Shown here: positions 23,175 to 48,355 of the stretch, in pieces
How positions within the stretch are numbered: position 1 is the stretch's first letter
How the letters are laid out: each line of letters begins with the position of its first letter
Assembly: GCF_004785955.1 (NCBI RefSeq)
Contig: NZ_SJER01000004.1
Span: 1-64,000, forward strand
Direction of reading: 5' to 3'
From: Halostella litorea
GTDB taxonomy: Archaea; Halobacteriota; Halobacteria; Halobacteriales; Natronoarchaeaceae
DNA: 64,000 bases
The notes under the pieces: model-generated
What the model was told of the DNA's origin: nothing
The model's database searches: none
What the model saw: the letters and a program-made list of their open reading frames with translations, nothing else
Position numbers and translations under genes: made by a program

Positions 23175-23187
23175 CCACACGGTGTGG
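23175..23187. promoter_or_regulatory. CCACAC/GTGTGG palindrome at the allantoinase-like gene start
   Basis: CCACAC, one nt, GTGTGG: a perfect 13-nt palindrome, ending 3 nt before the ATG at 23191, between the likely TATA region (GTTTTGGTA, 23161-23169) and the start codon. The place and symmetry fit a repressor operator. Similar sites are at 28904-28954 and 32955-33024. Confidence 0.5.
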
Positions 23188-23190
23188 CGT

Positions 23191-24613: not shown

Positions 24614-24637
24614 TGGTGGCCTCGCGTGGTCCCGCGT

Positions 24638-31170: not shown

Positions 31171-31972
31171 GCCACTCGGGCTCCCGCCGGGGGTACTCCG
31201 ATACCGCTTCCGTCCCGGGTCCGTGCTCCGGCCCGTCGCCGCCGCCCGGGGTGGATGCACCCGCCGCGAACAGGGCCGCGAGCCGGTCGTCGGTCACCTC
31301 GGCGGCCGGTTCGTCGAACCGCACGCGGCCGTCCGCCAGCCCCACGATCCGGTCGTAGCGCTCCACCGCCAGGTCCACATCGTGCAGCACGGTCAGGAGG
31401 ACGCGGTCGCCGGCGGCCGCCTCCAGCACGTCGAGCACGTTCGCCCGCGAGGCGGGGTCGAGGTTCGCCGTCGGCTCGTCGGCCAGCATGGCCGGCACGT
31501 CCCGAACCACCGCGCGGGCGAAGGCGACCCGCTGGCGTTCGCCGGCACTGAGGCGGTCGGCCCGCACGTCCGCTTTCCCCCGGAGGCCCACCGCCGCCAG
31601 CGCGTCCAGGGCCGGCCCGGGTCGCCGCGGTGCCAGCGGTTCAAGCAGCCCGCGCCACCACGGAAGCTCGCCCATCCGTCCGCCGAGGACGTTCGACAGC
31701 GCCGTTCGCCGGTCGACGAGCGTGTCGCCGCCGTAGGCGACCGCGACGTCGTCGCTGGTCGCCGGCTCGCCGTCGAGCACGACCCGCCCGCTGTCGGGGC
31801 GCACCGAGCCGTTGGCGACCCGGAGCAGGGTCGTCTTGCCCGCGCCCGAGGGACCGACGAGCGCGACGCGCTCCCCCTCCTCGACGTGGAAGGACACGTC
31901 GTCGAGGACCCGCTCCCCGTCGAACGACGCCGTGACGCCGTCGAAGCGGAGTTCGGAGCCGGCGTCGGTCAC
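31163..31972 (-). CDS. phnC: PhnC-like ABC ATPase with atypical Q-loop
   Basis: A 269-residue ABC ATPase. Walker [10 protein letters not shown] (residues 40-48), signature LSAGERQR and Walker [12 protein letters not shown] are intact. The Q-loop glutamine expected around residues 78-85 is not visible: the segment reads [15 protein letters not shown]. Most PhnC proteins read MVFQQFNL there. Loss or displacement of this residue would alter coupling to the permease, or be compensated. Overlaps phnE; starts 4 nt before the phnD stop. Confidence 0.84.
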
Positions 31973-32868
31973 GGGTTCGCCCCCGACTCGTCCCCGTCGA
32001 GCAGCCCGGCCATCTCGACGCCCTCGTTCAGCGACGTGAAGTCGTCGTGGCTCACGGGGACGTACTCATCGACGTTCTGGGTGTCGAGTATCCCCGTCCG
32101 GTCGCGGTCGTCAAGCTTCATGAACGCCTCCCGGATGCGCCCCACCCGGTCCGAGTCGACGGTCGGGGCGACGGCCCACGGGTAGTCCGGGAACCCCGGC
32201 GTGCGCCACAGTTCGACGACGTCGTCGCCGACGTCGCCGCTCTCGACGAGCGCGTCGTAGATGCGGGCGTTCAGCGCGCCGACGTCGCCGCTCGCGTTGG
32301 CTATCGCCCCGGCCGTGGCGTCGTGCGCGCCGACGTGGGTGGTCGAGGCGAAGTCGTCGGGTCGCGTGTCGAACTCCGTTCGGAGGTAGTACGTCGGCAT
32401 CACCGTCCCGCTGGTGCTGATCGGGTCGCCGAAGACGAGGTCGTAGTCGCCGGGCGCGGCGACGACGTCCTCCATGCTCGACGGCCCGTCCGCGTGGGCG
32501 ACGAACGCGGAGTGCCACTCCGTCGACCCGCCCTCCGACCCGACGACGACGGGTTCGGCGTCCGCGCGGTGGCGGGCGAGGATGTACGAGACGCCGCCGA
32601 AGTACGCGAGGTCGACCTGTTCGGCGGCCATCGCCCGGACCATCCCCGCGTAGTCCGCCGACGTGTCGACGTCGACGGTGGCGTCGAGGTGGCTCTCCAG
32701 GTACTCCGCGAGCCCGGTGTTTTGCTGGACCGCGGTGTCCGGGTCGACGTCGGGGACGACGCCCATCCGCACCGTGGACGTACCCGTTCCTCCGAGGCAA
32801 CCGCCGGTCAGGGCCGCGCCGCCGACGGCGGCGAGGTACGAGCGACGGCTGGTCGAACGCCGTGTCAT
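31969..32868 (-). CDS. phnD: PhnD-like substrate-binding lipoprotein
   Basis: A 299-residue secreted protein of the phosphate/phosphite/phosphonate binding family. Double arginine ([15 protein letters not shown]) suggests Tat export, and TGGC is the lipobox. The body has [11 protein letters not shown], a GGVSYILA motif and [10 protein letters not shown], as in PhnD. First gene of phnDCE, divergent from the hydroxylase operon. The ligand could be a phosphonate or, given the neighbours, a purine-derived anion; sequence alone does not tell. Confidence 0.82.
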
Positions 32869-33122: not shown

Positions 33123-33641
33123 GTGGAAATTCAACTGACTGTCAACGACGATCCGACGACCGCGACGGTCGGACCGGACGACGACCTGGCGACGGTACTG
33201 CGACGCAACGGCTACACCGGCGTGAAATGCGGCTGCGACGGCGGCGTCTGCGGCGCGTCGAAGGTGTTCGTCGACGGCGAGGTCGTGATGGCCTGTGGCG
33301 TCGACGCCAGCGAGGCCGACGGCGCGGACGTGCGGACGATCGCGGCCCTCGGGACCCAGGACGACCTCCACCCGATCCAGGCCGCGTTCGTCGACCACTT
33401 CGCCGTCCAGTGTGGCTTCTGCATCCCCGGGATGATAATCGAGGCGGAGTCGCTGCTGGCGGAGAACCCGGACCCGACCGAGGCGGAGGTCCGCGAGGCC
33501 ATCGACGACAACCGCTGTCGCTGCACCGGCTACCAGAAGCCCGTCGAGGCGATCCTCGACGCGGCCGACCGCATGGACGGAGGCCGGGTCGCGGCCGACG
33601 GCGGCGCGCGGCCCGACGAGGAGGGAGAGACCCATGAGTGA
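33123..33641 (+). CDS. Molybdenum hydroxylase [2Fe-2S] subunit 1 (XdhC/CoxS type), Cys-to-Ser change
   Basis: A 172-residue subunit with two [2Fe-2S] domains. The C-terminal alpha-helical site is intact (QCGFCIPGM and RCRCTGYQK). The N-terminal plant-type site normally reads GCxxGxCGxC; here it is CGCDGGVCGAS, so the third ligand is Ser46 instead of Cys. An extra Cys36 stands two residues before Cys38 and might replace it. Cys43 and Cys58 are retained. It transfers electrons from the molybdenum site; no FAD subunit is present. Overlaps the next gene by 8 nt. Start at GTG 33123, supported by GGAGG. Confidence 0.88.
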   Translation: MEIQLTVNDDPTTATVGPDDDLATVLRRNGYTGVKCGCDGGVCGASKVFVDGEVVMACGVDASEADGADVRTIAALGTQDDLHPIQAAFVDHFAVQCGFCIPGMIIEAESLLAENPDPTEAEVREAIDDNRCRCTGYQKPVEAILDAADRMDGGRVAADGGARPDEEGETHE

Positions 33642-36081
33642 CGACCGGACCGACCCCGCACCCGACGGCGGCACCGCTTCCCAGCCGGCGACGGACGAGC
33701 GCGAGGCGTTCGAGGAACACCCCCTCGAGTGGGACGAACCGGCGAACAACGACAAGGCCCCCGAGGAGCGCGACAGCGTCTCGCAGCCCGCCGAGAAGTA
33801 CGACGACCGGAAGCTCGTCACCGGGCAGGCGAAGTACACCGCGGACTACGGGGAGCGGTTCCCGGACCTCGCCCACGCGGCGGTCGTCCGCAGCGAGGTG
33901 CCCCACGGCCGCGTGACCGACGTCGACACGGACGCGGCCGAGGCGATGGACGACGTCCACGCCGTGCTCACGCCGTGGTCCGAGGCGGTGCCGGACGCCA
34001 AGTACACGAGCGCCGGCCAGTCGTACCCCGAGCCGAGCCCGTGGGACATGAACGTGCTCAACGAACACGTCCGATACGTCGGCGACCCGGTCGCGGCCGT
34101 CGCCGCCGAGGACCCGGACACGGCGGCGGCCGCGGCCGACGCCGTCGATGTCGAGTACGAGGAGCACGACCACGTCGTCGACCCCGAGGAGGCGTTCGAC
34201 GCGGACGCTCCGCAACTGTTCGCGGAGAGCGAGGTCGAAAACGGGATCGTCGGCCACGACTACGAGCGCAACCGGATGGCACACATCGACGGCGAGGTCG
34301 GCGACGTCGAGGCCGCGCTGGCCCGCGACGACGTCCACGTCCACGAGACGGAGTGGGAGACGATCCGGCAGTCCCACGCCCAGATCGAGAAGCACACGAC
34401 GCTCGCCTACACCGACGAGGACGACCGGCAGGTGGTGATCACGAGCACGCAGGTCCCCAACCACACCCGCCGCCAGCTCGCCCACCTGTTCGACGTCCCG
34501 ATCCGCGACATCAGGGTGAAGAAACCGCGCGTCGGCGGCGGGTTCGGCGGCAAGCAGGCGATGGTCGTCGAGCCGATCCCGATGGCGCTGTCGCTGGCGA
34601 CCGACCGCCCCGTCATGTACGAGGCCAGCCGCGAGGAGGAGTTCGGCGCGATGCGCTCGCGGCACCCGATGCAGGTCCGGGCGCGGACGGCCGTCACCGA
34701 CGACGGCGACATCGCGGCGATGGAGCTGTACGCGCTGTCGAACACCGGCGCGTACGGCAGCCACGGGATGACCGTCGCCGGCAACGTCGGCAGCAAGCCG
34801 ATGCCGCTGTACTCGAAGGTGCCAAACGTCCGCTTCGAGGCCGACATCGTCCACACGAACACGCCCCAGACCGGCGCGATGCGGGGCTACGGCGCGCCCC
34901 AGGGCACGCTCGCGCTGGAGGGGCACCTCGACGAGGTGGCCCGCGACCTCGGGCTCGACCCCGTCGAGTTCCGCCGGGAGCACTACATGGAGGTCGGCGA
35001 CCTGGACGAGATCGCCGGCATGATGGGCGGCGAGGGCGCCGAGCGCCGCATCCGCTCCTGCGGCCTCGACGAGTGCGTCGAGCGCGGCAAGGAAGCGATC
35101 GGCTGGGACGACGTCGACCAGCCAGACGAGGACGGCCGCCACCGCGGGATCGGGATGGCGCTGTCCGCCCAGGGGACCGGCGTCGCCGGCGACGAACTCG
35201 GCGCGGCCCAGATCATGATGAACGAGGACGGCTCGTTCCACCTGCAGGTCGGCGGCGTCGACATCGGCACCGGCGCGGACACGGCGTTCATCCAGATCGC
35301 CGCCGAGGTGCTGGGCTGCGACGAGGACGACGTCGTCGTGAAGTCCTCCGACACGGACAACACGCCGTTCGACTACGGCGCGTACGCCTCCTCGACCACC
35401 TACATCAGCGGCATGGCCGTCAAGAAGGCCGCCGAGGACGCCAAGGAGCGGATCCTCGACTGGGCGTCCCGGATGCTGGACGAACCCGTCGAGAACCTGG
35501 AAACGGCCGACGGCGAGGTGTACAGCGAGGCGACCGGCGACTCGGTGACGCTGGAGGACGTCGGCTACGAGTCGGTGTACGGCCACGACGACCGCGAGCA
35601 CATCCTCGGCAAGGGCACCCACTCCACGGAGGAGAGCCCGCCGCCGTTCGCCGCGCAGTTCGCCGACGTGACCGTCGACGAGGAAACCGGCGAGTTCGAG
35701 GTCAACAAGCTCGTCGTGGCGGTCGACTGCGGCGTCGCCATCAACCCCGGAATGGCCGAGGGACAGGTCGAGGGCGCGAACCACATGAGCTACGAGATGG
35801 CCGTCAGCGAGGGGATCACGGTCGACGGGGACGGCCGCGCGGAGGTGTCGGACTTCGACGAGTACGGCCTCCCCTCGGCGTCCGAGACGCCGCCAATCGA
35901 GAGCATCCTCGTGGAGACCCACGAACCGACCGGCCCGTTCGGCGCGAAGTCGGTCGCGGAGGTGCCGACCAACACGGTGCCACCCGCTATCTCGAACGCC
36001 GTCCGCGAGGCGGTCGGCGTCCGGATCAACGAGATGCCGATCACCGCCGAGAAGATCAGGGCGAAACTCGACGAAGAGTAG
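33634..36081 (+). CDS. Molybdenum hydroxylase molybdopterin subunit 1 (xanthine dehydrogenase family)
   Basis: An 815-residue large subunit of the xanthine dehydrogenase/aldehyde oxidase family. An acidic 45-residue extension precedes the usual start (KLVTGQAKYTADY). Cofactor motifs: GGGFGGKQ, MRGYGAPQG, a NTPFDYGAYASSTTY stretch, and near the C-terminus GPFGAKSVAE, the position of the catalytic glutamate (VGE in xanthine dehydrogenase). A CoxL-type VAYRCSFR loop is absent, so it is not a CO dehydrogenase. Paralogue of 36765-39224. With the selenium accessory genes nearby it is a candidate Se/Mo-dependent purine hydroxylase; substrate is inferred. Confidence 0.88.
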   Translation: MSDDRTDPAPDGGTASQPATDEREAFEEHPLEWDEPANNDKAPEERDSVSQPAEKYDDRKLVTGQAKYTADYGERFPDLAHAAVVRSEVPHGRVTDVDTDAAEAMDDVHAVLTPWSEAVPDAKYTSAGQSYPEPSPWDMNVLNEHVRYVGDPVAAVAAEDPDTAAAAADAVDVEYEEHDHVVDPEEAFDADAPQLFAESEVENGIVGHDYERNRMAHIDGEVGDVEAALARDDVHVHETEWETIRQSHAQIEKHTTLAYTDEDDRQVVITSTQVPNHTRRQLAHLFDVPIRDIRVKKPRVGGGFGGKQAMVVEPIPMALSLATDRPVMYEASREEEFGAMRSRHPMQVRARTAVTDDGDIAAMELYALSNTGAYGSHGMTVAGNVGSKPMPLYSKVPNVRFEADIVHTNTPQTGAMRGYGAPQGTLALEGHLDEVARDLGLDPVEFRREHYMEVGDLDEIAGMMGGEGAERRIRSCGLDECVERGKEAIGWDDVDQPDEDGRHRGIGMALSAQGTGVAGDELGAAQIMMNEDGSFHLQVGGVDIGTGADTAFIQIAAEVLGCDEDDVVVKSSDTDNTPFDYGAYASSTTYISGMAVKKAAEDAKERILDWASRMLDEPVENLETADGEVYSEATGDSVTLEDVGYESVYGHDDREHILGKGTHSTEESPPPFAAQFADVTVDEETGEFEVNKLVVAVDCGVAINPGMAEGQVEGANHMSYEMAVSEGITVDGDGRAEVSDFDEYGLPSASETPPIESILVETHEPTGPFGAKSVAEVPTNTVPPAISNAVREAVGVRINEMPITAEKIRAKLDEE

Positions 36082-36225
36082 GTCCCGGCTCCTCCCTGTC
36101 GCCCCACCGGCGACCCGGTGTTCGGGTTTAATTACGACCTTCTCACGGCCAAAACCTCGATGGATATTTACGGCCATGCGAGCGATACTCCGACGAACCG
36201 AGAGACTCCTTCCCAAGGTGTGCTC

Positions 36226-36768
36226 ATGCAACTCGAACTGGAACTCAACGGCAAACGGCGCACGTTCGACGCGGCGAAGTCGGACGTGTTGCTCGACGTG
36301 TTGCGGCGGAACGGATACACCGGCCCGAAGCGCGGCTGCGACACCGGCGCGTGCGGGATGTGTACGGTCCAGATCGACGGCGAGCCGGCGATGTCCTGCG
36401 TCACGCCGGTCGCGAGGGCCGACGGGTCGTCGGTGGAGACGATAGAGGGGCTGGGGTCCCAGGACGACCTCCACCCGATCCAGGCGGCGTTCGTCGACAA
36501 CTCCGCGCTCCAGTGTGGCTTCTGCATCCCCGGGATGATCATGCGCTCGAAGGCGCTGCTGGAGGAGAATCCGGACCCCTCGGAGGCGGAGGTCCGCGAG
36601 GCGCTGTCGGACAACCTCTGTCGGTGCACGGGGTACAAGAAGATCGTCGAGGCGGTGCTGGACGCGGCCGACCGCATGGACGGCGACGCGGCGCTGGCGG
36701 CCGACGGCGGAACGGTCGCGCTCGACCGGGAGTACCCGACGCGCCGCGGGGAGGGGGAGTCGCGATGA
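36226..36768 (+). CDS. Molybdenum hydroxylase [2Fe-2S] subunit 2
   Basis: A 180-residue subunit, paralogue of 33123-33641, with both iron-sulfur sites complete: GCDTGACGMC plus a later SC for the plant-type cluster, and QCGFCIPGM with LCRCTGYKK for the second. The ATG at 36226 gives the family opening MQLELELNGKRRTF. A weak TATA-like GATATTTA lies near 36160-36168. It overlaps the next gene by 4 nt, so the second hydroxylase is its own transcription unit or a continuation of the first. Confidence 0.9.
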   Translation: MQLELELNGKRRTFDAAKSDVLLDVLRRNGYTGPKRGCDTGACGMCTVQIDGEPAMSCVTPVARADGSSVETIEGLGSQDDLHPIQAAFVDNSALQCGFCIPGMIMRSKALLEENPDPSEAEVREALSDNLCRCTGYKKIVEAVLDAADRMDGDAALAADGGTVALDREYPTRRGEGESR

Positions 36769-39224
36769 GCAACGTCGGGGAGGACCGGGACGAGGCCGAC
36801 GGACGCGGAAACCGGCAGGTTGCGGAGGGGGCCACCGAGACGGACGCGTCGCCGGCGGAGCGCGAGGGCGGCGAGGACGACCGCCGGGCGGGCGCGGAGC
36901 GCGAACACCTGTCCGAGGACGTCGAGAAGGACGACGCGCGGAAGATAGTCACGGGCGAGGCCCGGTACACCGCCGACTACCGCGAGCGCTTCCCCGATCT
37001 GGCCGAGGGGAAGGTGATCAGAAGCGACGTCGCACACGGGTACGTCCGCGACGTCGATACGAGCGAGGCCGAGGCGATGGACGGCGTGTACGCCGTGATC
37101 ACGCCGTGGGACGACGTCGTCCCGGACGAGCCGTACTCCAGTTCGGGCCAGTCGTACCCCGAGCCGAGCCCGTGGGACCTGCGCGTGCTCCGCGAGCACG
37201 TCCGGTTCGTCGGCGACCCGGTCGCGGCCGTCGCCGCCGAGGACTCGGAGACGGCCGACCGCGCCGCCCGGAAGGTCGAGGTGGAGTACGAGGAACTGGA
37301 GCCGGTGCTCGACCCCGAGGAGGCGACGGAGCCGGACGCGCCGCAGCTGTTCGAGCCGGACGACGTCGAGAACAAGCAGGCCGGCGCGGACTACGAGCGG
37401 AACCTCGAATCGCACTTCGAGGGCGAGATCGGCGACGTGGCGCGGGCGTTCGACCGGGCGGACGACGAGCACGTGGTCGAGACGGAGTGGGAGACGCCGT
37501 ACCAGTCCCACTGCGTCCCCGAGCCCCACACGACGATCGTCCACACCGACGAGGACGACCGGTACCACTTCATCACGGCCACGCAGGTCCCGTTCCACAC
37601 GCGCCGGCAGATCGCCCACCTGTTCGACGTCCCGATCCGCGACGTCCGCGTCACCAAGCCGCGGATCGGCGCGGGCTTCGGCGCGAAACAGGAGATGGCG
37701 ATCGAGCCGATCGCCTTCGCGCTTCACCTGGCGGCCGGCAAGCCCGTCAAACTGGAGATGAGCCGCCGCGAGGAGTTCTACGCGCTGCGGTTCCGCCACC
37801 CGATGCGGATGCGGATGAAGACGGCCGTCAGCGAGGACGGCGACGTCGAGGCGATGGACCTGTACACGCTGTCGAACTCCGGGGCGTACGGCACGCACGG
37901 GATGACCGTCGCCAACAACGTCGGCACGAAGCCGCTGCCGCTGTACCCCCGCGTTCCGAACGTCCGGTTCGAGGGCGACGTGGTCCACACGAACCTGCCG
38001 ATGGGCGCGGCGATGCGGGGCTACGGCGCGCCCCAGGGCCACTTCGCCGTCGAGTCCCACATGGACGAGGTCGCCCGGCGACTCGACCTCGACCCGGTCG
38101 AGTTCCGGAAGCGCAACGCCGTCCGCGAGGGAGACGTCGACCGCAGCGTCGCCATCCTGAAGGAGGGCGACCGGTTCGCCCGGGAGATCCGCTCCTGCGG
38201 GCTCCGCGAGTGCATCGAGCGCGGCAAGGACGCCATCGGCTACGACGACATCGACCAGCCCGACGAGGACCACCTGCACCGCGGCGTCGGCGTGGCGCTC
38301 ATCGCGCAGGGCAGCGGCGTCGCCGGGAAGGAACTCGGCGCGGCCCAGATCAAGATGAACGAGGACGGCTCCTTCGTCCTCCAGGTCGGCGGCGTCGACA
38401 CCGGCACGGGCGCGGACACGATGTTCGGACAGGTCGCCGCGGAGGTGCTCGGCTGCGATCCCGAGGACGTGGTCGTCGTCGCCTCGGACACGGACCTGAC
38501 GCCGTTCGACTACGGCGCGTACGCCTCCTCGACCACCTACATCAGCGGGCAGGCGGTCAAGGAGGCCGCCGAGGACGCCCGGGAACGCATCCTCGACTGG
38601 GCGTCCCGGATGCTGGACGAACCCGCGGATGACCTGACGGCGGCCGACGGCGCGGTCGTCAGCGAGGCGACCGGCGAGCGCGTCTCGCTGAAGGAGGTCG
38701 GCTACGAGGCGACCTACGGCGACGACGGCCGCGAACACATCCTCGGGAAGGGGAGCCACTCGACCGACGAGTCGCCGCCGCCGTACGGCGCGCAGTTCGT
38801 CGACGTGACCGTCGACGAGCGGACCGGCGAGTACGAGATAAACGAGATGGTCTTCGCCGCGGACTGCGGCGTCGCCATCAACCCCGCGCTCGTCGAGGGC
38901 CAGATCGAGGGCGGCGAACACATGAGCCTGGAGTTCGCGACGAGCGGCGGCCTGGAGTTCGACGACGAGGGCAACCCCGAGACGCTGGGCTTCCGGGGGT
39001 ACGGGATGCCCCGCACCACCGACCACCCGCCGATGGAGACGATCATCGTCGAGACCCACGAGCCGACCGGCCCGTTCGGCGCGAAGTCGATCGCCGAACT
39101 GCCGACCAACGGCGTGCCGCCCGCGCTCAGCAACGCCGTCCGCGACGCCGTCGGCGTGCGGGTCACCTCGCTGCCGATCACGGCCGAGGACGTGAAGGCG
39201 GCGCTGGACGAACGGTCGGCGTGA
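36765..39224 (+). CDS. Molybdenum hydroxylase molybdopterin subunit 2
   Basis: An 819-residue large subunit, paralogue of 33634-36081. It has a longer acidic N-terminal extension (about 55 residues), then KIVTGEARYTADY, GAGFGAKQ in place of GGGFGGK, MRGYGAPQG, DLTPFDYGAYASSTTY, and GPFGAKSIAE with the catalytic Glu. The pairs share many blocks of near-identical DNA (for example around 35390-35420 and 38520-38550), showing a tandem duplication. No FAD-binding subunit accompanies either pair, so electrons must leave through the Fe-S subunit to an unknown acceptor. Substrate specificity may differ between the two. Confidence 0.9.
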   Translation: MSNVGEDRDEADGRGNRQVAEGATETDASPAEREGGEDDRRAGAEREHLSEDVEKDDARKIVTGEARYTADYRERFPDLAEGKVIRSDVAHGYVRDVDTSEAEAMDGVYAVITPWDDVVPDEPYSSSGQSYPEPSPWDLRVLREHVRFVGDPVAAVAAEDSETADRAARKVEVEYEELEPVLDPEEATEPDAPQLFEPDDVENKQAGADYERNLESHFEGEIGDVARAFDRADDEHVVETEWETPYQSHCVPEPHTTIVHTDEDDRYHFITATQVPFHTRRQIAHLFDVPIRDVRVTKPRIGAGFGAKQEMAIEPIAFALHLAAGKPVKLEMSRREEFYALRFRHPMRMRMKTAVSEDGDVEAMDLYTLSNSGAYGTHGMTVANNVGTKPLPLYPRVPNVRFEGDVVHTNLPMGAAMRGYGAPQGHFAVESHMDEVARRLDLDPVEFRKRNAVREGDVDRSVAILKEGDRFAREIRSCGLRECIERGKDAIGYDDIDQPDEDHLHRGVGVALIAQGSGVAGKELGAAQIKMNEDGSFVLQVGGVDTGTGADTMFGQVAAEVLGCDPEDVVVVASDTDLTPFDYGAYASSTTYISGQAVKEAAEDARERILDWASRMLDEPADDLTAADGAVVSEATGERVSLKEVGYEATYGDDGREHILGKGSHSTDESPPPYGAQFVDVTVDERTGEYEINEMVFAADCGVAINPALVEGQIEGGEHMSLEFATSGGLEFDDEGNPETLGFRGYGMPRTTDHPPMETIIVETHEPTGPFGAKSIAELPTNGVPPALSNAVRDAVGVRVTSLPITAEDVKAALDERSA

Positions 39225-39241
39225 TCCGGACCGGCGGAACA

Positions 39242-39249
39242 GTTATTGT
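39242..39249 (+). promoter_or_regulatory. TATA-like element before the DsrEFH operon
   Basis: GTTATTGT centred about 28 nt before the ATG at 39273. It suggests that the sulfur-relay and XdhC-YqeB genes form a separate, leaderless transcription unit. Confidence 0.45.
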
Positions 39250-39272
39250 CCGCTCGGTTCGAACGGTAACCA

Positions 39273-39644
39273 ATGGCGTACATCGGGTTTCTCCTCACCG
39301 GCGGCCCGTTCGACAGCGAGCGCTGGCGGACGGCCTATGAACTGGGCCGGGCGGCGCTGGACCGCGGCCACGAGGTGACGTTCTTCCACTACCTCGACGG
39401 CGCGCTCGTCCCGGTCGCGGACCAGACGTTCCCGGACTGCTCGGACACGGGGCTGTACGACGAGATGCCGACCGAGAAGTTCCAGGAGCTGGTCGCGGAC
39501 GGCGCGGAGGTCATCTGCTGTGGCCTCTGTGTCGACGCGCGCGGCATCGACGCGCCCGACGACTACCCCGACGGCGTCGAGGTCGGACTCCTGCCGGACC
39601 TGGCCGACGTGATCGGGGAAGCCGACCGGGTGGTGTCGCTATGA
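39273..39644 (+). CDS. DsrE/TusD-like sulfur relay protein
   Basis: A 123-residue DsrE-family protein. It has the opening strand IGFLLTGGPFDSERWRTAYE and the reactive region VICCGLCVDARGID, in which the cysteine before VDARGI corresponds to the TusD/DsrE catalytic cysteine. First of three overlapping or adjacent genes (dsrE, dsrF, dsrH types) that in other organisms form a hexameric sulfur-transfer complex. Here they lie between molybdenum hydroxylases and the XdhC-YqeB gene, so transfer of sulfur or selenium to the molybdenum cofactor is the best guess. Confidence 0.8.
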   Translation: MAYIGFLLTGGPFDSERWRTAYELGRAALDRGHEVTFFHYLDGALVPVADQTFPDCSDTGLYDEMPTEKFQELVADGAEVICCGLCVDARGIDAPDDYPDGVEVGLLPDLADVIGEADRVVSL

Positions 39645-39994
39645 AGCGGGACGTCGTCGTGTTGCTGACGCGCGCGCCGTACGGCCGCGTGCATGTCCCC
39701 GAGGGCCTGCGGGCCGCCCGCGGCGTCGCCGCCGGGTTCGACGGCCACGACGTGACTGTCGTGTTTACGCAGGACGGCACGTACGCCGCGCGGGAAGCCG
39801 TCGACCGCGAGGCGCTCAACATGCCGGGCCACGTCGCCGACCTGCACGAGGGGGACGGCGCGATGGTGGTCGACGCCGCCGCGATGGCCGAGCGGGGGAT
39901 CGACGCGGGCGAGATAGCCGACGACGTGACCGTCCGGCCGGGCGAGGAGGTGACGGCGCTCGTCCGGGACGCTGACTGCACGCTGGACTTCTGA
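39641..39994 (+). CDS. DsrF/TusC-like sulfur relay protein
   Basis: A 117-residue DsrE/F-like protein, MKRDVVVLLTRAPYGRVHVP at the start, with the alpha/beta pattern of the family. It starts 4 nt before the end of the previous gene. The only cysteine is near the C-terminus (RDADCTLDF), not at the DsrE active site. In DsrEFH and TusBCD complexes the F/C subunit is structural, which fits. Confidence 0.75.
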   Translation: MKRDVVVLLTRAPYGRVHVPEGLRAARGVAAGFDGHDVTVVFTQDGTYAAREAVDREALNMPGHVADLHEGDGAMVVDAAAMAERGIDAGEIADDVTVRPGEEVTALVRDADCTLDF

Positions 39995-39996
39995 CC

Positions 39997-40242
39997 ATGC
40001 TCTACCTGCTAGACAAGCCGCTGGCCGAGGTCGGACTTCGAACCGTCGCGGAAGACCCCGACGCGCACGTCGTGCTGATCCAGGACGGCGTCTACCTGTC
40101 GCCGGACGTCGACGCCGAACTCTACGCCGTCGGGAAGGACGTCGACGTGCGCGGCGTCGACCTCCCGCCGGCGGTCGAGCGCGTCCCGTACGACGCCGTG
40201 GTCGAACTGATGGAGGAGCACGAGGTGCGGAGCTTCGTATGA
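39997..40242 (+). CDS. DsrH/TusB-like sulfur relay protein
   Basis: An 81-residue protein, MLYLLDKPLAEVGLRTVAED at the start and LIQDGVYLS in the middle, as in DsrH/TusB proteins. It contains no cysteine, although many DsrH proteins carry one reactive cysteine, so it is probably structural. It begins 2 nt after the dsrF-like stop and overlaps the XdhC-YqeB gene by 4 nt. Confidence 0.75.
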   Translation: MLYLLDKPLAEVGLRTVAEDPDAHVVLIQDGVYLSPDVDAELYAVGKDVDVRGVDLPPAVERVPYDAVVELMEEHEVRSFV

Positions 40243-41819
40243 GCCTCTTCGATCGCGTCGCCGAACTGGTCGACCGCGGCGAGGCCGCCGCGATGCTGAC
40301 CATCGTGGACAAGGACGGGAGCGCCCCGCGCGACGTCGGCGACCGGATGCTCGTCACGCCGGACGACGCGTTCGGCACGATCGGCGGCGGGCACGTCGAA
40401 CACCTCGCCGTCCAGGACGCGCGGGCGGTGCTCGCCGACGAGGCCGAGTCCGGCGTCCGGACGTACGAGCTCGAACCCGACGGCAACACCGGGATGGTCT
40501 GTGGCGGCACGATGGACGTGTTCGTCGATCGGATCCGCGGCAACGCGCGCCTCTACGTCGCCGGGGCCGGCCACATCGCGCTCGAACTCGCTCCGCTGGC
40601 CGAGCGACTCGGCTACGACGTGACGGTGGTCGACGACCGCGCGGAGTACGCCGACCCCGAGAGCTTCCCCGACGGGGTGGACGTGATACACGGCGATTAC
40701 GAGGCCGCGCTCGGCGACCTGCCGATGACCGCCGAGACCGCAGTCGCCGTCGCGACGCGGAGCGGGACGTTCGACCGGCGCGCCGTCGCCGCGGCGCTGG
40801 ACGGCGGCGCGGGCTACGTCGGCCTAGTCGCCAGCGGGACGAAGGCCGATCGGGTGATCGACGGGCTCGCGGAGGAGGGGTACGGCCGGCGTGACCTCGC
40901 CCGGGTCCGCGCGCCGGTCGGACTCGACCTCGGCGGCAGCGGCCCGGAGGACGTCGCGCTCTCGGTCCTCTCCGAGGTGCACATGGACCGGCACGACGCC
41001 ACCGGTCGGCGCGCGACCCGGTTGGACCTCGACGACCTCGCCGTGGTCCGGGGCGGCGGCGACCTCGGCAGCGGCGTCGTCTACCGACTGCATCAGGCCG
41101 GGTTCCCGGTTGTCGTGACCGAGGTCGAGCGACCGACCGTCGTTCGCCGCGGGGTGGCGTTCGGCGCGGCGATGTACGAGGACGAGGTGTCGGTCGAAGG
41201 GGTCGACGCGCGACGCGCGGCCGACGTCGACGAGGCCGTCGCGGTGCTCGCCGACGACGCGGTCCCGGTGCTCGCCGACCCGGACGCGGCGGTCGCCGCG
41301 GAACTGGACGCCGCCGTGCTCGTGGACGCGATCATGGCGAAGGGACGGACCGACACCGGCACCCGCCGCGGCGACGCCGACGTGGTCGTGGGCCTCGGCC
41401 CCGGGTTCGAGGCCGGCGCGGACGTCGACGCCGTCGTCGAGACGGACCGCGGCCACGAACTGGGCCGCGCCATCTACGAGGGGCGGGCGAGCCCGTACGA
41501 CGGCGAACCCGGCGAGCGCCGCGGCTACACGCACGAGCGCGTCCTCCGCGCGCCCGGCGCGGGGGTCTGGGAGCCGACCGTCGATATCGGCGACCTCGTC
41601 TCGGCCGGCGATACCGTCGGCCACGTCGGGAGCGAGGCCGTGACCATGGAGATAGACGGGCTGGTCCGCGGGCTGGTCCACGGCGGCCTGGACGTCGACG
41701 AGGGGACGAAACTCGGCGACGTCGACCCCCGCGGCGAGGAAGTCGATCCGGCGAAGATATCCGACAAGGCGCTCTGTCTCGGCGGCGGCGTGCTGGAGGC
41801 CCTGTTGCGCTTGCGGTGA
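40239..41819 (+). CDS. XdhC-YqeB fusion, selenium-dependent molybdenum hydroxylase maturation
   Basis: A 526-residue fusion. Residues 1-255 are XdhC-like: LFDRVAELVDRGEAAAMLTI, GGGHVEH (49-55), and a Rossmann segment LYVAGAGHIALELAPLAERL (105-124). Residues about 265-526 are YqeB/EF2563-like: VVRGGGDLGSGVVYRLHQAG (269-288), VTEVERPTVVRRGVAFGAA, and VVGLGPGFEAGADVD. XdhC inserts sulfur into the molybdenum cofactor of xanthine dehydrogenase; YqeB marks selenium-dependent hydroxylases. In bacteria these are normally separate genes. Overlaps the dsrH-like gene by 4 nt, so it is translated with the relay trio. Convergent with selD. Confidence 0.87.
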   Translation: MSLFDRVAELVDRGEAAAMLTIVDKDGSAPRDVGDRMLVTPDDAFGTIGGGHVEHLAVQDARAVLADEAESGVRTYELEPDGNTGMVCGGTMDVFVDRIRGNARLYVAGAGHIALELAPLAERLGYDVTVVDDRAEYADPESFPDGVDVIHGDYEAALGDLPMTAETAVAVATRSGTFDRRAVAAALDGGAGYVGLVASGTKADRVIDGLAEEGYGRRDLARVRAPVGLDLGGSGPEDVALSVLSEVHMDRHDATGRRATRLDLDDLAVVRGGGDLGSGVVYRLHQAGFPVVVTEVERPTVVRRGVAFGAAMYEDEVSVEGVDARRAADVDEAVAVLADDAVPVLADPDAAVAAELDAAVLVDAIMAKGRTDTGTRRGDADVVVGLGPGFEAGADVDAVVETDRGHELGRAIYEGRASPYDGEPGERRGYTHERVLRAPGAGVWEPTVDIGDLVSAGDTVGHVGSEAVTMEIDGLVRGLVHGGLDVDEGTKLGDVDPRGEEVDPAKISDKALCLGGGVLEALLRLR

Positions 41820-41838
41820 GGCGGCGCGTCCGCCGGAC

Positions 41839-42864
41839 TCACCGACTGACCGGCTCCAGTTCGGGGCCGCGAAGCGTCACCCCGGAGCCGTCGGTGACGC
41901 GGCCGATCCGGCGGTAGAAGACGCCGGCGGCGTCGAACCGCGATTCGAGGTCGGCGGCGCGCGCGGCCGGAACCGACAGGAGCAGCCCCCCACTGGTCTC
42001 CGCGCTCTCGCCGTCGGCCAGCCCGTAGCCGAACAACTCGGAGAGGTCTTCGGTCCCCTCGATGACGGGCAGGCGCGTCACCTCGACGCCGACGCCGGAG
42101 TTCGCCGCGAGCACCGCCGACTGGCCGACGAGGCCGAAACCGGTGACGTCCGTCGCCGCGCCCGCGAGGTCGCGGGCGGCCTCGGCGGCCGCGCGGTTCG
42201 GCGTCGTCATCCACGCCAGCGCCTCCTCGCCGATCCGCTCGACCGGCCGCCCGGCGGCGTCGGCGACGAGGTCGGCGAACTCGCCGTCCGTGACGCGGAG
42301 CGCGCCCATCGCCGACTGCGTGCCGAGCGGCTTCGTGAGGTACAGTTCGTCGCCCGGCGTCGCGCCCTGGGAGGTCAGCAGGACGTCGGGCGAGGCGGTC
42401 GCGGAGACCGCACCGCCCGCGAACGGCCACGGGCTGACGATCGTGTGGCCGCCCGCGACGACGCCGCCCATCCCCTCGACCGCGTCGGCGACGCCCGCGA
42501 GCAGCGCCGGCGCGACATCCGTCAGTTCCTGCGGGAGGCCGAGGACGACGAGGAAGTCGAGGTTCTCCGTCGCCCCCGTGGCGAACGCGTCGCTCGCGGC
42601 GTTGCAGGCGGCGACGCGGCCGAAGTCGTACGGGTCGTCGACGATGGGCGTGAAGAAGTCGACCGTCGACACCAGCGCGAGGTCGTCGGTCAGCCGCCGC
42701 GCGGCGGCGTCTTCGCCGACGCCGAACAGCAGGTCGTCGCTGGGCTCGGTGAGGCCCGCCTCCCCGAGCAGGTCGTCGAGGTCGCCCTGCCCGACCTTGC
42801 ACGAGCAGCCGTGGAGCTCCGCGTACTCGGTGAGGCGGACGTCGGCGTCGGGGCCGTCCGCCAT
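41839..42864 (-). CDS. selD: Selenophosphate synthetase (selenide, water dikinase)
   Basis: A 341-residue SelD. It opens LTEYAELHGCSCKVG, matching the active-site loop GCGCK of E. coli SelD; Cys20 and Lys23 correspond to the essential Cys17 and Lys20. The nucleotide-binding part shows VDFFTPIVDDPYDFGRVAAC and NAASDAF. Cysteine, not selenocysteine, is at the active position. ATG at 42864 starts 2 nt after the stop of the tusA-like gene. SelD supplies selenophosphate; in this window no selA, selB, selC or ybbB is visible, so it appears tied to the molybdenum hydroxylases. Confidence 0.93.
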   Translation of the reverse strand: MADGPDADVRLTEYAELHGCSCKVGQGDLDDLLGEAGLTEPSDDLLFGVGEDAAARRLTDDLALVSTVDFFTPIVDDPYDFGRVAACNAASDAFATGATENLDFLVVLGLPQELTDVAPALLAGVADAVEGMGGVVAGGHTIVSPWPFAGGAVSATASPDVLLTSQGATPGDELYLTKPLGTQSAMGALRVTDGEFADLVADAAGRPVERIGEEALAWMTTPNRAAAEAARDLAGAATDVTGFGLVGQSAVLAANSGVGVEVTRLPVIEGTEDLSELFGYGLADGESAETSGGLLLSVPAARAADLESRFDAAGVFYRRIGRVTDGSGVTLRGPELEPVSR

Positions 42865-42866
42865 CG

Positions 42867-43133
42867 CTACGCCCCCGGGACGTCGGCGTCCTCGGTCACC
42901 TCTATCGCCAGTTCGAACGCGTCGGCGTCCGCGCCGGCCCCGTCCGCCGACTCCCCGTCGGCGTCGGAGACGGCGAACCCGTGCTTGCGACACATGCGGC
43001 GGAGGTTCCGCTCGGCCGGCGGGTAGTCCCCGCGGACCACTAGTTCGTCCCCCGCGTTGAGTTCGGCGAGTTCGCGGCGGACGATCAGCGCCGGGCGCGG
43101 GCACACTTCGCCGGTGACGTCAACGCGTGCCAT
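42867..43133 (-). CDS. TusA/SirA-like protein next to selD
   Basis: An 88-residue TusA-like protein. CPRP motif at Cys11 and a second conserved Cys48 in RRMCRKHG. The stretch GDYPPAERNLRRMCRKHG is shared with the protein at 50358-50609 but not with the sulfur-operon TusA at 4227-4472. An acidic tail follows. Co-transcribed with selD, so it is a candidate selenium or sulfur carrier, as proposed for SirA-like proteins near selD in bacteria. Divergent from yqeC. Confidence 0.85.
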   Translation of the reverse strand: MARVDVTGEVCPRPALIVRRELAELNAGDELVVRGDYPPAERNLRRMCRKHGFAVSDADGESADGAGADADAFELAIEVTEDADVPGA

Positions 43134-43189
43134 ACGGGCCGGTATGCGAGTGGATCGCAAAACGGTGTCGGCTCGGTGCGTCGCAAAGG

Positions 43190-43194
43190 TATAT
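43190..43194 (+). promoter_or_regulatory. TATA element of yqeC
   Basis: TATAT centred about 27 nt before the ATG at 43219. Confidence 0.55.
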
Positions 43195-43218
43195 CCATCC
43201 GGCCCGTGCAGGGTGGGT

Positions 43219-43995
43219 ATGCGACTGTCCGAGGCCCTCCCGCTCGGCGACCGCGAACTCGTCGCGTTCGTCGGCGCGGGCGGGAAGAAGACCGCGATGG
43301 GGCGGCTCGCGGCGGAGGGCACCGAACGGGGCTACGACGTCGGATACACCACGACGACCCGGATGCCCCCACCGCCCGACCTGCCGCTGACCGTCGCGGA
43401 CGTCGAGGCGTCGCCGTACGCTGTCGCGGAGGACGAACCGCCCGCGGCGTTCGCCGCCTCGTGGGTGGCCGACCCCGAGCGCGTCGACCGCAAGGTCGAG
43501 GGGTTCGACCCCGACGCGCTCGACGACTTCTTCGCCAGGGGGATCTTCGACTGGCTGGTCGTGAAAGCCGACGGGGCGCGCCGGCGCGAGTTCAAAGCGC
43601 CCGGGCCCGACGAACCGGCGGTCCCCGACAGGGCGACCCACGTCGTCCCCGTGGCCTCGGTGGCCGCCGTCGGCGACCTGCTCGACGAGGCGACCGTCCA
43701 CCGCCCGGAGCGCGTCGCGGCGATCACGGACCTCGCGGTCGGCGACGCGATCACGCCCGAGGCGGTCGGGGCCGTCCTCGCGAGCCCCGACGGCGGCCTG
43801 AAAGGCGCACCCGACGCCGCGACCGTCACCCCGGTCGTCAACAAGGCCGACACGCCGGAGCGGCGTGAGACTGCGCGGGCGGTTCTCGACCACGCCATCG
43901 GCCGCACCGACCGCTTCGACCGCGGCCTCGTCACCTCCTTCGAGCGCGACGTCTGTCTCCCGGTCGAGGGGCGGCCGTCCCGCCGGCGGGCGTAA
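43219..43995 (+). CDS. yqeC: YqeC, selenium-dependent hydroxylase accessory protein
   Basis: A 258-residue protein of the YqeC family. The N-terminal P-loop is VGAGGKKTA (residues 18-26), followed by YTTTTRMPPP, and later DWLVVKADGARRREFKAP and VTPVVNKAD, all typical. YqeC is found in genomes with orphan SelD and selenium-dependent molybdenum hydroxylases; its exact biochemical role is unknown. ATG at 43219, leaderless. Divergent from the tusA-selD unit and upstream of mocA. Confidence 0.9.
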   Translation: MRLSEALPLGDRELVAFVGAGGKKTAMGRLAAEGTERGYDVGYTTTTRMPPPPDLPLTVADVEASPYAVAEDEPPAAFAASWVADPERVDRKVEGFDPDALDDFFARGIFDWLVVKADGARRREFKAPGPDEPAVPDRATHVVPVASVAAVGDLLDEATVHRPERVAAITDLAVGDAITPEAVGAVLASPDGGLKGAPDAATVTPVVNKADTPERRETARAVLDHAIGRTDRFDRGLVTSFERDVCLPVEGRPSRRRA

Positions 43996-44086
43996 CGGGG
44001 CAGCTGGTCGGGAGCAGATCCGGGGGTCGGACACGTCGCCGGGCGCCGGGGAAAGAACCAGTACCGTTCCGGCCCCACGATGAGAT

Positions 44087-44791
44087 ATGACCGACCAGCC
44101 CGGAACGCGGTCCGACGGCGCTTCGGCCCGGCGGACCGACGGCGGCCCGGAGGACGGCGTCGACGGAGCGAACGACGCGGACGGTCCGGACGACTCGGCT
44201 ACGTCCCCCCGCGTCGGCGGCGTGGTGCTCGCGGCGGGCCTGGGATCCCGATTCGAGGGCGGGAACAAACTCCTCGCCGAGGTCGACGGGAGGCCGGTCG
44301 TCGAACGCGCGGCGAAGACCCTGCGTCGGTCGGCGGTCGCCGAGGTGGTCGCCGTCGTCGGACACGAGGCCGAGCGGGTGACGGCGGCCGTCGACGGCCT
44401 CACGGACGCCGTCAGGCGGAACGAGGACTACGCGGCGGGACAGAGCACCTCGGTCCGGGTCGGCGTCGCCGCCGCCCGGGAGCGGGGCTGGGACGCCGCC
44501 GTCTTCATGCTGGGCGACATGCCGTTCGTCCGCCCGGCCACGGTCGACGCCGTGGTGGCGGCGTACGCGCGCGGCGACGGATCTATCGTCGCCCCAGCCT
44601 ACGACGGCCGGCGCGGCAACCCCGCGCTGTTCGGGAAGCGCCACTACGACGCCCTGGCGGACGTGTCCGGTGACCGCGGGGGGCGGGACCTGATCGAGAC
44701 CCACGAGGACAGCGTTCTCGTCGATGTCGACGACCCCGGCGTGACGCGGGACGTCGACTTCCGGGCGGACCTGGAATCGGACGCCGAATAG
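44087..44791 (+). CDS. mocA: MocA/YgfJ-like molybdenum cofactor cytidylyltransferase
   Basis: A 234-residue nucleotidyltransferase. After a 40-residue acidic, disordered start comes VVLAAGLGSRFEGGNKLLAE, the GT-A signature of MocA/MobA, and MLGDMPFV with the metal aspartate. MocA adds CMP to molybdopterin to give MCD, the cofactor form used by xanthine dehydrogenase family enzymes in many bacteria, and YgfJ is part of the bacterial selenium hydroxylase cluster. The start is taken at ATG 44087; no shorter start is obvious. Follows yqeC by 91 nt. Confidence 0.88.
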   Translation: MTDQPGTRSDGASARRTDGGPEDGVDGANDADGPDDSATSPRVGGVVLAAGLGSRFEGGNKLLAEVDGRPVVERAAKTLRRSAVAEVVAVVGHEAERVTAAVDGLTDAVRRNEDYAAGQSTSVRVGVAAARERGWDAAVFMLGDMPFVRPATVDAVVAAYARGDGSIVAPAYDGRRGNPALFGKRHYDALADVSGDRGGRDLIETHEDSVLVDVDDPGVTRDVDFRADLESDAE

Positions 44792-44800: not shown

Positions 44801-46468
44801 TCAGGACACCACGACGTCCACGTACGCCGCCTCCTCGACGTCGACGAGGCCGTTGTTCGTGAGCCGGTACTCCGGGATCACCTCCAGGGCGAGGAACGAC
44901 AGCTCCATCAGGCCGCTTTTGGCCATCCCCAGTTCGACGGCCCGCCGCTCGACCGCCTCGAACCGCTCGCGGACCACCTCGACCGGTTCGTCGGACATCA
45001 GCCCGGCGACCGGGAGCGCGATGGCCGAGAGTTCGTCGGTCGCGGGGTCGTACGCGGCGACCCCGCCGTTCATCTCCCGCAGTTCGTTCGCCACCGTCGC
45101 CATCGCCGCGTGGTCCGCGCCGGCGACGACGCAGTTGTGGGCGTCGTGGGCGACCGTCGAGCCGACCGCGCCGCGCTCGACGCCGAGGCCGTGGACGAAG
45201 CCGCGGCCGATCCCGCCGCTCCCGCCGTGGCGCTCGATGACCGCCAGGGCCGCCACGTCGTCGTCCGGGGCCGCGACGAGCGTCCCGTCCCGGACCGGCA
45301 CAGCCGTCTCCATGCGGGCGGTTTGGAGCCCGCCGACCGCGTCGACGACCCGGACGCGCTCGGTGCCGTCGCGGCCGTCCGGGACCGTGATCGCGAGGTC
45401 CGCGGCCGACACCGCCGGGAACTCGACCGTGTCCGTCGCGACGTTGGTCGACGGCGGGGAGCTGCCGTCCGTCGTCGGGTCGACCTCGCCGTCGACCAGC
45501 ACGCGGTCGACGTCCCACGCCGCCAGGTCGTCGAGGAGGACCAGATCCGCCGGCGCGCCGGGTTCGATGCGGCCGAACGGGAGGTCGTAGGCCTCGGCGG
45601 TGTTTATCGTCGCCATCTGCACGGCCTCGACGGGGTCCGCGCCCTCCCGGACCGCCGTCCGGAGCGCGCAGTCGACGCCGCCTTCCTCGACCAGGTCCGT
45701 CACCTCGCGGTCGTCGGTACAGAGCGAGAGCCGCCGGCTGTCGACCTCGTCGGCGAGGGGCAGCAGGTCGGCGAGGTTCCTGCTGGACGAGCCCTCGCGC
45801 AGGTACACGCGGAGGCCGGCGTCGACCTTCTCCCGGGCCTCGACGAGGGTGATGCTCTCGTGGTCGGTGTCGAGGTAACGTGCCGCCTCCTGGAGGTCGG
45901 AGCCGGTCAGCCGGGGTATGTGGCCGTCGACTGTCAGGTCGCGCTCCCGGGCCGCCCGGATCTTCGCGTGGACCTCCTCGTCGCCCGCGAGCAGGCCGGG
46001 GGCGTTCATCACCTCGCCCAGCGCCACGACGTTCGGTTCGTCGAGCAGGTCCGCCACGGCGTCGGCCGGAAGCGTCGCCCCGCCGTCCTGGAGGTCCGAC
46101 GCCGGGACGCTCGACGGGACGGTGAACCGCGCCTTCAGGGGCGTGTGCTCGGCGTCCGCGACGACCGCGCGGACGCCCGCCGCGCCGACCACGTTCGCTA
46201 TCTCGTGGGGGTCGTGGATCACGCTCGTCACGCCGCGTGGCACGACGGCCGCCCCGTACTGGGGGAGCGTCACCATGCTCGACTCGACGTGCATGTGCGC
46301 GTCGATGAGGCCCGGGGCGACGTAGTTCGCCGTCAGTTCCCGGTCGGCGGGCCGTTTCTCCAGCGCGACGACGACCCCGTCGTCTATCGCCACGGCTCCC
46401 TCTTCTAAGTTCCCGGTGGCGACGTTGACGACCGTGCCGCGGACGAGCGTGTCGACGCTGTCGGTCAC
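44801..46468 (-). CDS. ade: Adenine deaminase
   Basis: A 555-residue amidohydrolase of the adenine deaminase family. Motifs: DAHMHVESSM (metal His pair), VIHDPHEIANV, CTDDREVTDLVEEGG, and in the C half SGLMELSFLALEVIPEYRLT. Length matches AdeC. It converts adenine to hypoxanthine, feeding the molybdenum hydroxylases. Convergent with mocA. No TATA element at leaderless distance from the ATG at 46468, so the transcript may carry a leader. Confidence 0.93.
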   Translation of the reverse strand: MTDSVDTLVRGTVVNVATGNLEEGAVAIDDGVVVALEKRPADRELTANYVAPGLIDAHMHVESSMVTLPQYGAAVVPRGVTSVIHDPHEIANVVGAAGVRAVVADAEHTPLKARFTVPSSVPASDLQDGGATLPADAVADLLDEPNVVALGEVMNAPGLLAGDEEVHAKIRAARERDLTVDGHIPRLTGSDLQEAARYLDTDHESITLVEAREKVDAGLRVYLREGSSSRNLADLLPLADEVDSRRLSLCTDDREVTDLVEEGGVDCALRTAVREGADPVEAVQMATINTAEAYDLPFGRIEPGAPADLVLLDDLAAWDVDRVLVDGEVDPTTDGSSPPSTNVATDTVEFPAVSAADLAITVPDGRDGTERVRVVDAVGGLQTARMETAVPVRDGTLVAAPDDDVAALAVIERHGGSGGIGRGFVHGLGVERGAVGSTVAHDAHNCVVAGADHAAMATVANELREMNGGVAAYDPATDELSAIALPVAGLMSDEPVEVVRERFEAVERRAVELGMAKSGLMELSFLALEVIPEYRLTNNGLVDVEEAAYVDVVVS

Positions 46469-48074: not shown

Positions 48075-48355
48075 GTTCCGTGTCACACACCGACACGTCG
48101 TTTCAAGGTTTGGATCATTACACCTTATATTCGAAAATGTGTATTACTACGTCGCGGTTCGGTGACCGTACACAGCGTTTTCTCAGACTTACCTTACTAT
48201 TCGGTATTCGTCGCTTACGCGGGGAAGATCACGCCTTCCGACTCGTTACAGCAATACACCTGTAACGAGCTATGCGGCTCGTGTCCCGGGATTCGGTCGG
48301 GGTCGTCCGGGACGATCGTCTGCCGAACGGCCGCACGTCCGGCGGCAGGGAGCCG
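48075..48355. other. AT-rich spacer between the two NCS2 genes
   Basis: 281 nt with no gene. It holds GTGTC...GACAC (48080-48096) close to the copy 1 start, AT-rich DNA around 48115-48150, and the perfect inverted repeat at 48242-48269. Confidence 0.45.
48242..48269. promoter_or_regulatory. Perfect inverted repeat between the NCS2 genes
   Basis: CTCGTTACAG, 8-nt spacer, CTGTAACGAG: 10-nt arms with no mismatch, about 87 nt beyond the stop of the second permease and 170 nt upstream of the first. It could be a terminator hairpin for the second gene or an operator for the first; there is no T-run on the minus strand. Confidence 0.45.

Follow-up and report, generated by a model that had tools for sequence, protein, structure and literature searches.

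A candidate selenium-cofactor cassette in Halostella litorea that combines molybdenum hydroxylase genes with a DsrEFH-like trio and a separate TusA

The first 64,000 nucleotides of the 383,975-base contig NZ_SJER01000004.1 of the haloarchaeon Halostella litorea (hereafter the window; G000 denotes its genome) carry a compact run of genes for two molybdenum (Mo) hydroxylases of the xanthine dehydrogenase (XDH) type, the selenium genes selD, yqeB and yqeC, a tusA-like gene and a trio, dsrE-dsrF-dsrH. The sequence comparisons presented here make it moderately probable that this locus is a cassette for a selenium cofactor of both hydroxylases, with TusA and DsrEFH passing selenium on from SelD to the XdhC-YqeB fusion protein.

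Gene layout and the third selenium trait

Read from left to right, the cassette consists of two pairs of iron-sulfur (Fe-S) and Mo-binding subunits, dsrE-dsrF-dsrH and an xdhC-yqeB fusion, followed on the opposite strand by selD and tusA, and then by yqeC and a mocA-like gene. Throughout, SelD-, YqeB- and YqeC-type assignments were judged by the curated NCBIfam bit-score cut-offs, and domains by the Pfam cut-offs, which the Fer2, Fer2_2 and MoCoBD domains of the hydroxylase pairs exceed.

33123..33641, plus strand: XDH-type [2Fe-2S] subunit of pair 1; Fer2 and Fer2_2 over the Pfam cut-offs; the open reading frame (ORF) opens at 33096, and the start is that of the initial annotation
33634..36081, plus strand: XDH-type molybdopterin-binding subunit of pair 1; MoCoBD_1 and MoCoBD_2; closest structure 1rm6_A, then 3hrd_A, nicotinate dehydrogenase
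36226..36768, plus strand: XDH-type [2Fe-2S] subunit of pair 2; Fer2 and Fer2_2; ORF from 36118, start placed by the length of relatives
36765..39224, plus strand: XDH-type molybdopterin-binding subunit of pair 2; MoCoBD_1 and MoCoBD_2; closest structure 1rm6_A
39273..39644, plus strand: dsrE, DsrE/TusD-like, with a CCGLC motif; Pfam DsrE, 71 bits; aligns to DsrE 2hy5_A
39641..39994, plus strand: dsrF, DsrF/TusC-like; Pfam DsrE, 38.6 bits; best structure DsrF 2hy5_B
39997..40242, plus strand: dsrH, DsrH/TusB-like; Pfam DsrH, 30.7 bits against a cut-off of 24.4; TM0979 1rhx
40239..41819, plus strand: xdhC-yqeB fusion, the XdhC half first, then YqeB; TIGR03309, 354 bits against a cut-off of 220
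41839..42864, minus strand: selD of the Cys type (GCSCK); TIGR00476, 268 bits against a cut-off of 125; alternative GTG start at 42870
about 42867..43133, minus strand: tusA-like gene with a CPRP motif, inside a longer ORF and directly upstream of selD; TsuB/YeeD, YedF and TusA models at 27-29 bits, each below its cut-off
43219..43995, plus strand: yqeC, probable start; TIGR03172, 187 bits against a cut-off of 73
44087..44791, plus strand: mocA-like nucleotidyltransferase; Pfam NTP_transf_3; TIGR03310, 137 bits, below the cut-off of 186

Every gene that the initial annotation had named between 33123 and 44791 was recovered in place by the Pfam and NCBIfam searches, while dsrE-dsrF-dsrH (39273-40242) and a PhnDCE-like ATP-binding cassette (ABC) transporter (30283-32868) had been missed. 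Because the trio and this possible selenium-oxyanion transporter are also present, the description of the system as ‘complete' turns out to be better grounded than that annotation could know.

SelD, YqeB and YqeC are all present over their curated cut-offs, as expected for the third selenium trait. The trait itself, as had been acknowledged from the outset, is not new: it was proposed in 2008 from the pNG700 locus of Haloarcula marismortui (Haft & Self 2008, PMC2276186), a species for which Zhang 2008 (PMC2432076) reports it too; the archaea described as having it all belong to Halobacteriales (Lin 2015, PMC5322559), and the TusA-like gene of H. marismortui already figures in the trait literature. 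The window and pNG700 share the order of the xdh pairs, dsrE-F-H, xdhC-yqeB, selD-tusA, yqeC and mocA, and no selenocysteine or selenouridine system was found with either. They differ in their flanks: the window has the PhnDCE transporter on the opposite side of the cassette, and an adenine deaminase and permeases come after the cassette.

In the available text of the two H. marismortui papers (PMC2276186, PMC2432076), the haloarchaeal DsrE/F/H proteins are not named as components. YqeB and DsrE both appear in PMC5322559 and in a 2022 review (PMC9312934), where, in the text available, DsrE concerns YedF and a selenoprotein, and DsrE has been described as a selenoprotein family with a UxxC motif (PMC13188914, PMC2398784, PMC1794560). 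No report tying DsrE/F/H to the third selenium trait was found in the literature, in a search of mainly open papers that did not extend to figures such as the gene map of Zhang 2008. A dedicated DsrEFH trio with a separate TusA is, apparently, undescribed as part of the trait.

Co-occurrence of DsrEFH, SelD and YqeB

Among 243 haloarchaeal genomes of one order, SelD exceeds the cut-off in 24, which come from six families, with 14 in a single family, and YqeB does so in the identical 24. Matches of some kind to SelD were detected in all 243 genomes, as expected of related AIRS-domain proteins, the best of those below the cut-off reaching 97 bits versus 238 for the lowest-scoring true SelD.

SelD had initially been considered an orphan, with selA, selB and selC out of view, and this status is supported for the components that were searched for, bacterial SelA not being among them. 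In the 24 SelD-positive genomes, no SelB exceeds the cut-off and SepSecS yields no match at all (the Methanocaldococcus jannaschii control was positive); SenB is likewise absent over the cut-off, but also from all 14 control genomes, so that this search has no positive control. YbbB exceeds the cut-off in none of the 243 genomes; 28 of them show weak partial matches that do not exceed 30 bits, among them one of the 24 (G189) but not G000. The Rfam threshold of 47 bits for tRNA-Sec is crossed in one of the 24 genomes (G083), by what proved to be a tRNA-Ser(TGA) within a tRNA array, and G000 scores 40.6 bits. SelD thus stands without any detected selenocysteine or selenouridine system. The array itself (L101 6166-9734, G083:C4) packs 26 tRNA genes densely on a 285-kb contig and recalls tRNA clusters such as those seen in viruses or plasmids.

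A profile of the haloarchaeal DsrE, built from 10 of 15 representatives, scores 219-250 bits in exactly the 24 genomes with SelD and YqeB; 24 further genomes match it at E<=1e-5, with scores no higher than 54.6 bits. The DsrE alignment took the place of Pfam DsrH (PF04077) as the census marker, the latter having been discarded as too insensitive: it recognized 3 of the 243 genomes and missed G000, versus dsrH in 24 of 24 by direct comparison. The three genes dsrE-dsrF-dsrH are contiguous and tusA adjoins selD in all 24 loci, and dsrEFH abuts xdhC-yqeB in 23; in the incomplete genome G184, it is found elsewhere on the same 9-kb contig. Fisher tests of co-occurrence ignore kinship and linkage and were not relied on, and mirror-tree correlations, high for every linked gene, were likewise set aside.

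Hydroxylases with a MoCoBD_1 domain (E<=1e-30) are encoded in 115 of the 243 genomes, including all the SelD-positive ones, and the other 91 of these genomes lack SelD, YqeB over the cut-off and an intact DsrE of the haloarchaeal cassette type. The trio therefore follows selenium, not molybdenum. TusBCD is, like DsrEFH, a sulfur carrier, and the trio could instead be the source of sulfur in the usual Mo=S ligand, replacing a NifS-type desulfurase, with selenium arriving by another route. This would agree with the sulfur carried by DsrEFH in the known case (PMC6620896) and with the lack of an annotated cysteine desulfurase in five neighbourhoods, the gene tables of which are incomplete. Against it, the 91 genomes that lack this DsrE imply that haloarchaeal Mo hydroxylases generally do without the trio, although some of them possibly encode CO-dehydrogenase-like enzymes with another cofactor; on balance, such a sulfur supply appears improbable. 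That DsrEFH and TusA thiolate tRNA in the manner of E. coli TusABCD is very hard to credit: the protein families are the same, but the genes are present in only 24 of the 243 genomes, always with SelD and YqeB, whereas tRNA thiolation is expected far more widely.

DsrEFH, TusA and YqeB as candidate carriers

The trio has the make-up of a DsrEFH/TusBCD-type complex, that is, three adjacent genes, one per subunit type, and a cysteine at the position of DsrE Cys78. DsrE aligns to DsrE 2hy5_A (E 0.001, 22 bits), with Cys83 placed on its Cys78 at low local confidence, the best solved match of DsrF is DsrF 2hy5_B (E 4.7e-7), and DsrH matches TM0979 (1rhx, E 2.5e-8). As in Allochromatium vinosum DsrEFH and E. 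coli TusBCD, the subunits are small, three in number and each similar to its counterpart, with a cysteine at the Cys78 position; unlike in those systems, DsrE has a CxxC motif, DsrH lacks a conserved cysteine and the context is selenium rather than sulfur oxidation or tRNA. The scores of the three proteins against the TusD, TusC and TusB equivalogs (TIGR03012, TIGR03010 and TIGR03011) are 19.5, 26.9 and 32.7 bits, respectively, below the cut-offs of 89, 94 and 49.

Cys83 and Cys86 of DsrE are invariant in the 24 loci, DsrF and DsrH have no conserved cysteine, and the DsrH of the window has no cysteine of any kind. In DsrEFH, sulfur is carried on a conserved DsrE cysteine (PMC6620896). Of the 12 cassette proteins compared, DsrE shows the strongest conservation, with a median identity to the window copy of 91.9% and a lowest value of 61.8%. 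The median dN/dS (ratio of nonsynonymous to synonymous substitution rates) is 0.08 for dsrE, 0.16 for dsrF and 0.18 for dsrH, from the 226, 235 and 249 pairs, respectively, out of 276 that have a dS of 0.05-2.

The selenium-dependent molybdenum hydroxylase (SDMH) locus of Enterococcus faecalis has sclA-selD-yedF-DUF3343-yqeC-yqeB in one run, together with XdhC, xdh and mocA. It shares with the window SelD, YqeB, YqeC, MocA, XdhC and XDH, as well as a TusA domain and a DsrE domain with a CGxC motif, which has been noted for YedF (PMC5322559). However, in E. faecalis, TusA and DsrE are fused as YedF and accompanied by SclA and DUF3343, whereas in the window TusA is a separate protein encoded next to selD, dsrE is followed by dsrF and dsrH, and XdhC and YqeB form a single protein; with TusA and DsrE in different genes, the YedF model TIGR03527 (cut-off 110), which covers both in one protein, is matched by TusA alone at 27.5 bits. 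In Methanococcus maripaludis, TusAD transcripts rise by about 4.5 log2 units under selenium depletion (PMC11097638).

Gene coupling, co-occurrence and the cysteine motif point to TusA and DsrEFH as a possible carrier step. More specifically, it is proposed, tentatively, that they form a dedicated selenium relay from SelD to XdhC-YqeB for insertion on Mo, as separate proteins where bacteria have the fused YedF. The main rival is a role on the supply side: TusA and DsrEFH would act before SelD, binding and reducing incoming selenium or holding toxic selenide on protein, and would pass selenide to SelD without any part in Mo loading. The coupling of tusA to selD in all 24 loci and the bacterial SclA-SelD-YedF run both suit such a supply, and Haft & Self (PMC2276186) place a SirA-like protein probably before selenophosphate synthesis; the trio, however, abuts xdhC-yqeB and not selD in 23 of the 24 loci, which makes a position upstream of SelD rather unlikely.

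The presumed acceptor of the relay is a two-part protein. In the predicted structure, the XdhC half folds like XdhC (2we7_A, Z 21.2, root-mean-square deviation (rmsd) 4.3 over 240 residues); the model of the full fusion informed mainly this half, and YqeB was therefore folded alone. The resulting model has a mean pLDDT (predicted local distance difference test) of 75, with parts of the middle below 50, and combines a Rossmann-like N-terminal part with a barrel like that of the biotin carboxyl carrier protein (BCCP) at residues 167-235. The barrel superimposes on the Pyrococcus horikoshii BCCP with Z 11 and an rmsd of 1.0-1.1 over 63-65 residues, a rank that it shares with other barrels and dehydrogenases; a second comparison covered only the candidates provided by Foldseek itself. 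This barrel agrees with the tentative AccB similarity reported for C. difficile YqeB (PMC11448449). Among 12 YqeB sequences, only one has a lysine in the stretch that we take, from the motif as generally known, to correspond to the biotin-type motif, so that no lysine is conserved there.

Hydroxylases, replicons and the proposed pathway

The genes around the cassette that may bear on its substrates are the following.

30283..31260, minus strand: PhnE-like ABC permease; BPD_transp_1; the relative in H. marismortui is named phnE
31163..31972, minus strand: PhnC-like ABC ATPase; ABC_tran; best model PhnC, below cut-off
31969..32868, minus strand: PhnD-like binding protein, a candidate selenium-oxyanion binder; best NCBIfam model TIGR04553 (putative selenate substrate-binding protein), 179 bits, below the cut-off of 250
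44801..46468, minus strand: adenine deaminase-like; TIGR01178, 464.9 bits, just under the cut-off of 472.5
46647..48086, minus strand: NCS2 transporter of the xanthine permease subfamily; TIGR03173, 439 bits against a cut-off of 414
48356..49741, minus strand: NCS2 transporter of the xanthine permease subfamily; TIGR03173, 448 bits against a cut-off of 414
50671..51999, minus strand: amidohydrolase of the 5'-deoxyadenosine deaminase family; NF005557, 706 bits against a cut-off of 522

The XdhA model NF043082 is the best for both Mo large subunits (669 and 657 bits versus a cut-off of 780), and their scores against TIGR03311 (Se_dep_XDH) are 270 and 292 bits, with a cut-off of 830. Naming the substrate from sequence was given up, both large subunits having 4-hydroxybenzoyl-CoA reductase (1rm6_A) as their nearest solved relative. 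The initial annotation had the hydroxylases carry a labile selenium ligand at molybdenum and act on purines, both of which are putative. Purine substrates are suggested by the neighbours, namely the adenine deaminase-like protein, the two transporters of the xanthine permease subfamily and the 5'-deoxyadenosine deaminase family protein. No XDH-type subunit binding flavin adenine dinucleotide was detected with Pfam among 40 ORFs of the window or in five annotated relatives with incomplete gene tables.

No genome of the 243 encodes a TIGR04553 selenate-binding protein over the cut-off of 250; similar proteins at E<=1e-30 are present in 14, all of them within the SelD-positive 24. In genome G217 (L053 from 13663), the PhnD-like match reaches only 38%, there is no PhnC match and a PhnE match is present; the transporter looks decayed there, while SelD and the trio are kept.

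SsnA was dropped for 50671-51999 in favour of the 5'-deoxyadenosine deaminase family. The amidohydrolase gene at 21723-23948 has SsnA as its best match, with 255 bits to TIGR03314, below the cut-off; in other genomes, ssnA is a gene linked to selenium metabolism. A YgeX-type purine enzyme was considered for the PALP gene at 24626-25888 and rejected because its product matches threonine synthase. Genes for the beta and alpha subunits of the electron transfer flavoprotein and for a FixC-like oxidoreductase lie in a row at 60043-63245.

The cassette is often located on plasmids or secondary replicons and is patchy between species. In a collection of 72,556 plasmid records, the xdhC-yqeB fusion matches 401, with at least 80% coverage in 19, of which 15 are haloarchaeal. 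DsrF matches (E<=0.01) only 15 records, the same 15 that carry a DsrE with at least 80% identity and a full-length haloarchaeal XdhC-YqeB; nine others have DsrE-family matches at 27-31%. The DsrE gene is found on plasmid CP040679.1 of Halostella pelagica (322,915 bases) and on ‘chromosome 2' of Actinarchaeum halophilum, and the plasmid matches to the fusion include Haloarcula hispanica. A scan of the genomes of 84,980 species with two exact DsrE peptide patterns, by which distant relatives would be missed, returned 18 loci, 17 whole-length and one a fragment, all haloarchaeal by record title.

A remnant of the cassette was detected in Natronococcus jeotgali (L088 10001-12468; the dsrE fragment is G202:C102:2367-2468), where dsrE breaks off after its first 34 codons and continues directly as about 15 codons of xdhC. 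The fetched piece has no dsrF, dsrH, selD, tusA, yqeB or yqeC, and neither SelD nor YqeB exceeds the cut-off anywhere in the genome; what is left in the piece are genes for adenine deaminase, for a permease and for a hydroxylase large subunit, the last with an open reading frame whose start is cut off by the contig end. The deletion could reflect a recent loss or an enzyme able to work without selenium, and it speaks as much against a selenium cassette as for it. The persistence of the hydroxylase gene after the selenium genes were lost would suit another possibility, in which the hydroxylases belong to the ordinary sulfur type and some other selenium product is what the selenium genes are for, as would the location of E. 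coli yqeBC in a purine region (PMC2276186) of a bacterium in which SDMHs are likely not made (PMC11448449). Yet XdhC and YqeB form one fusion protein, none of the 24 loci lacks a hydroxylase large subunit, and the searches revealed no further user of selenium among those looked for, all of which renders this possibility quite improbable.

Several observations weigh against a selenium cassette with a TusA/DsrEFH relay. Both Mo large subunits fall below the cut-off of every NCBIfam model that they match, and no biochemical work that demonstrates selenium in a haloarchaeal hydroxylase came to light. TusA, too, is below every curated cut-off, with TsuB/YeeD, a thiosulfate protein, on top (29.3 bits) and YedF at 27.5-28.8. 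The parallel with YedF rests on motif and context because the comparison of the DsrE part by profiles is weak (E 0.003, probability 11%). The counts of 24 out of 24 are not independent events, given that the genes are linked and travel together and that more than half of the genomes represent one family, and MOB-suite classifies all 15 DsrF-bearing plasmids as non-mobilizable. In the clostridial yqeB region of Peptoclostridium, 32.7 kb with an incomplete gene table, no DsrE-family gene is annotated, which implies that a carrier of this kind need not be encoded close by, and C. difficile without yqeC shows no obvious phenotype (PMC11448449). In favour of the cassette, according to the same source, the selD and yqeB mutants of C. 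difficile share a growth defect on xanthine and urate.

Under the proposed pathway, the ABC transporter would import a selenium oxyanion, and SelD would make selenophosphate. The cysteine of the TusA CPRP motif and Cys83/Cys86 of DsrE in a DsrEFH heterotrimer would carry the selenium from SelD to XdhC-YqeB. Judging from their families, XdhC would hold the molybdenum cofactor, while YqeB would help to set selenium on the molybdenum, and the two hydroxylase pairs may oxidise purines such as hypoxanthine and xanthine. As two separate proteins, TusA and DsrE would take on the task that fused YedF seems to have in bacteria.

One compact cassette seems to hold every step of this pathway, in genomes where the searches found no other job for SelD. 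The conserved DsrEFH/TusA set offers a specific candidate for the carrier step that lends itself to gene knock-out, and genetic tools exist for Haloarcula hispanica. Selenium delivery to molybdenum has been called the least understood selenium pathway (PMC11448449); if the proposal is true, the relay would be the selenium counterpart of a sulfur relay and would fill in the carrier step that this pathway still lacks.

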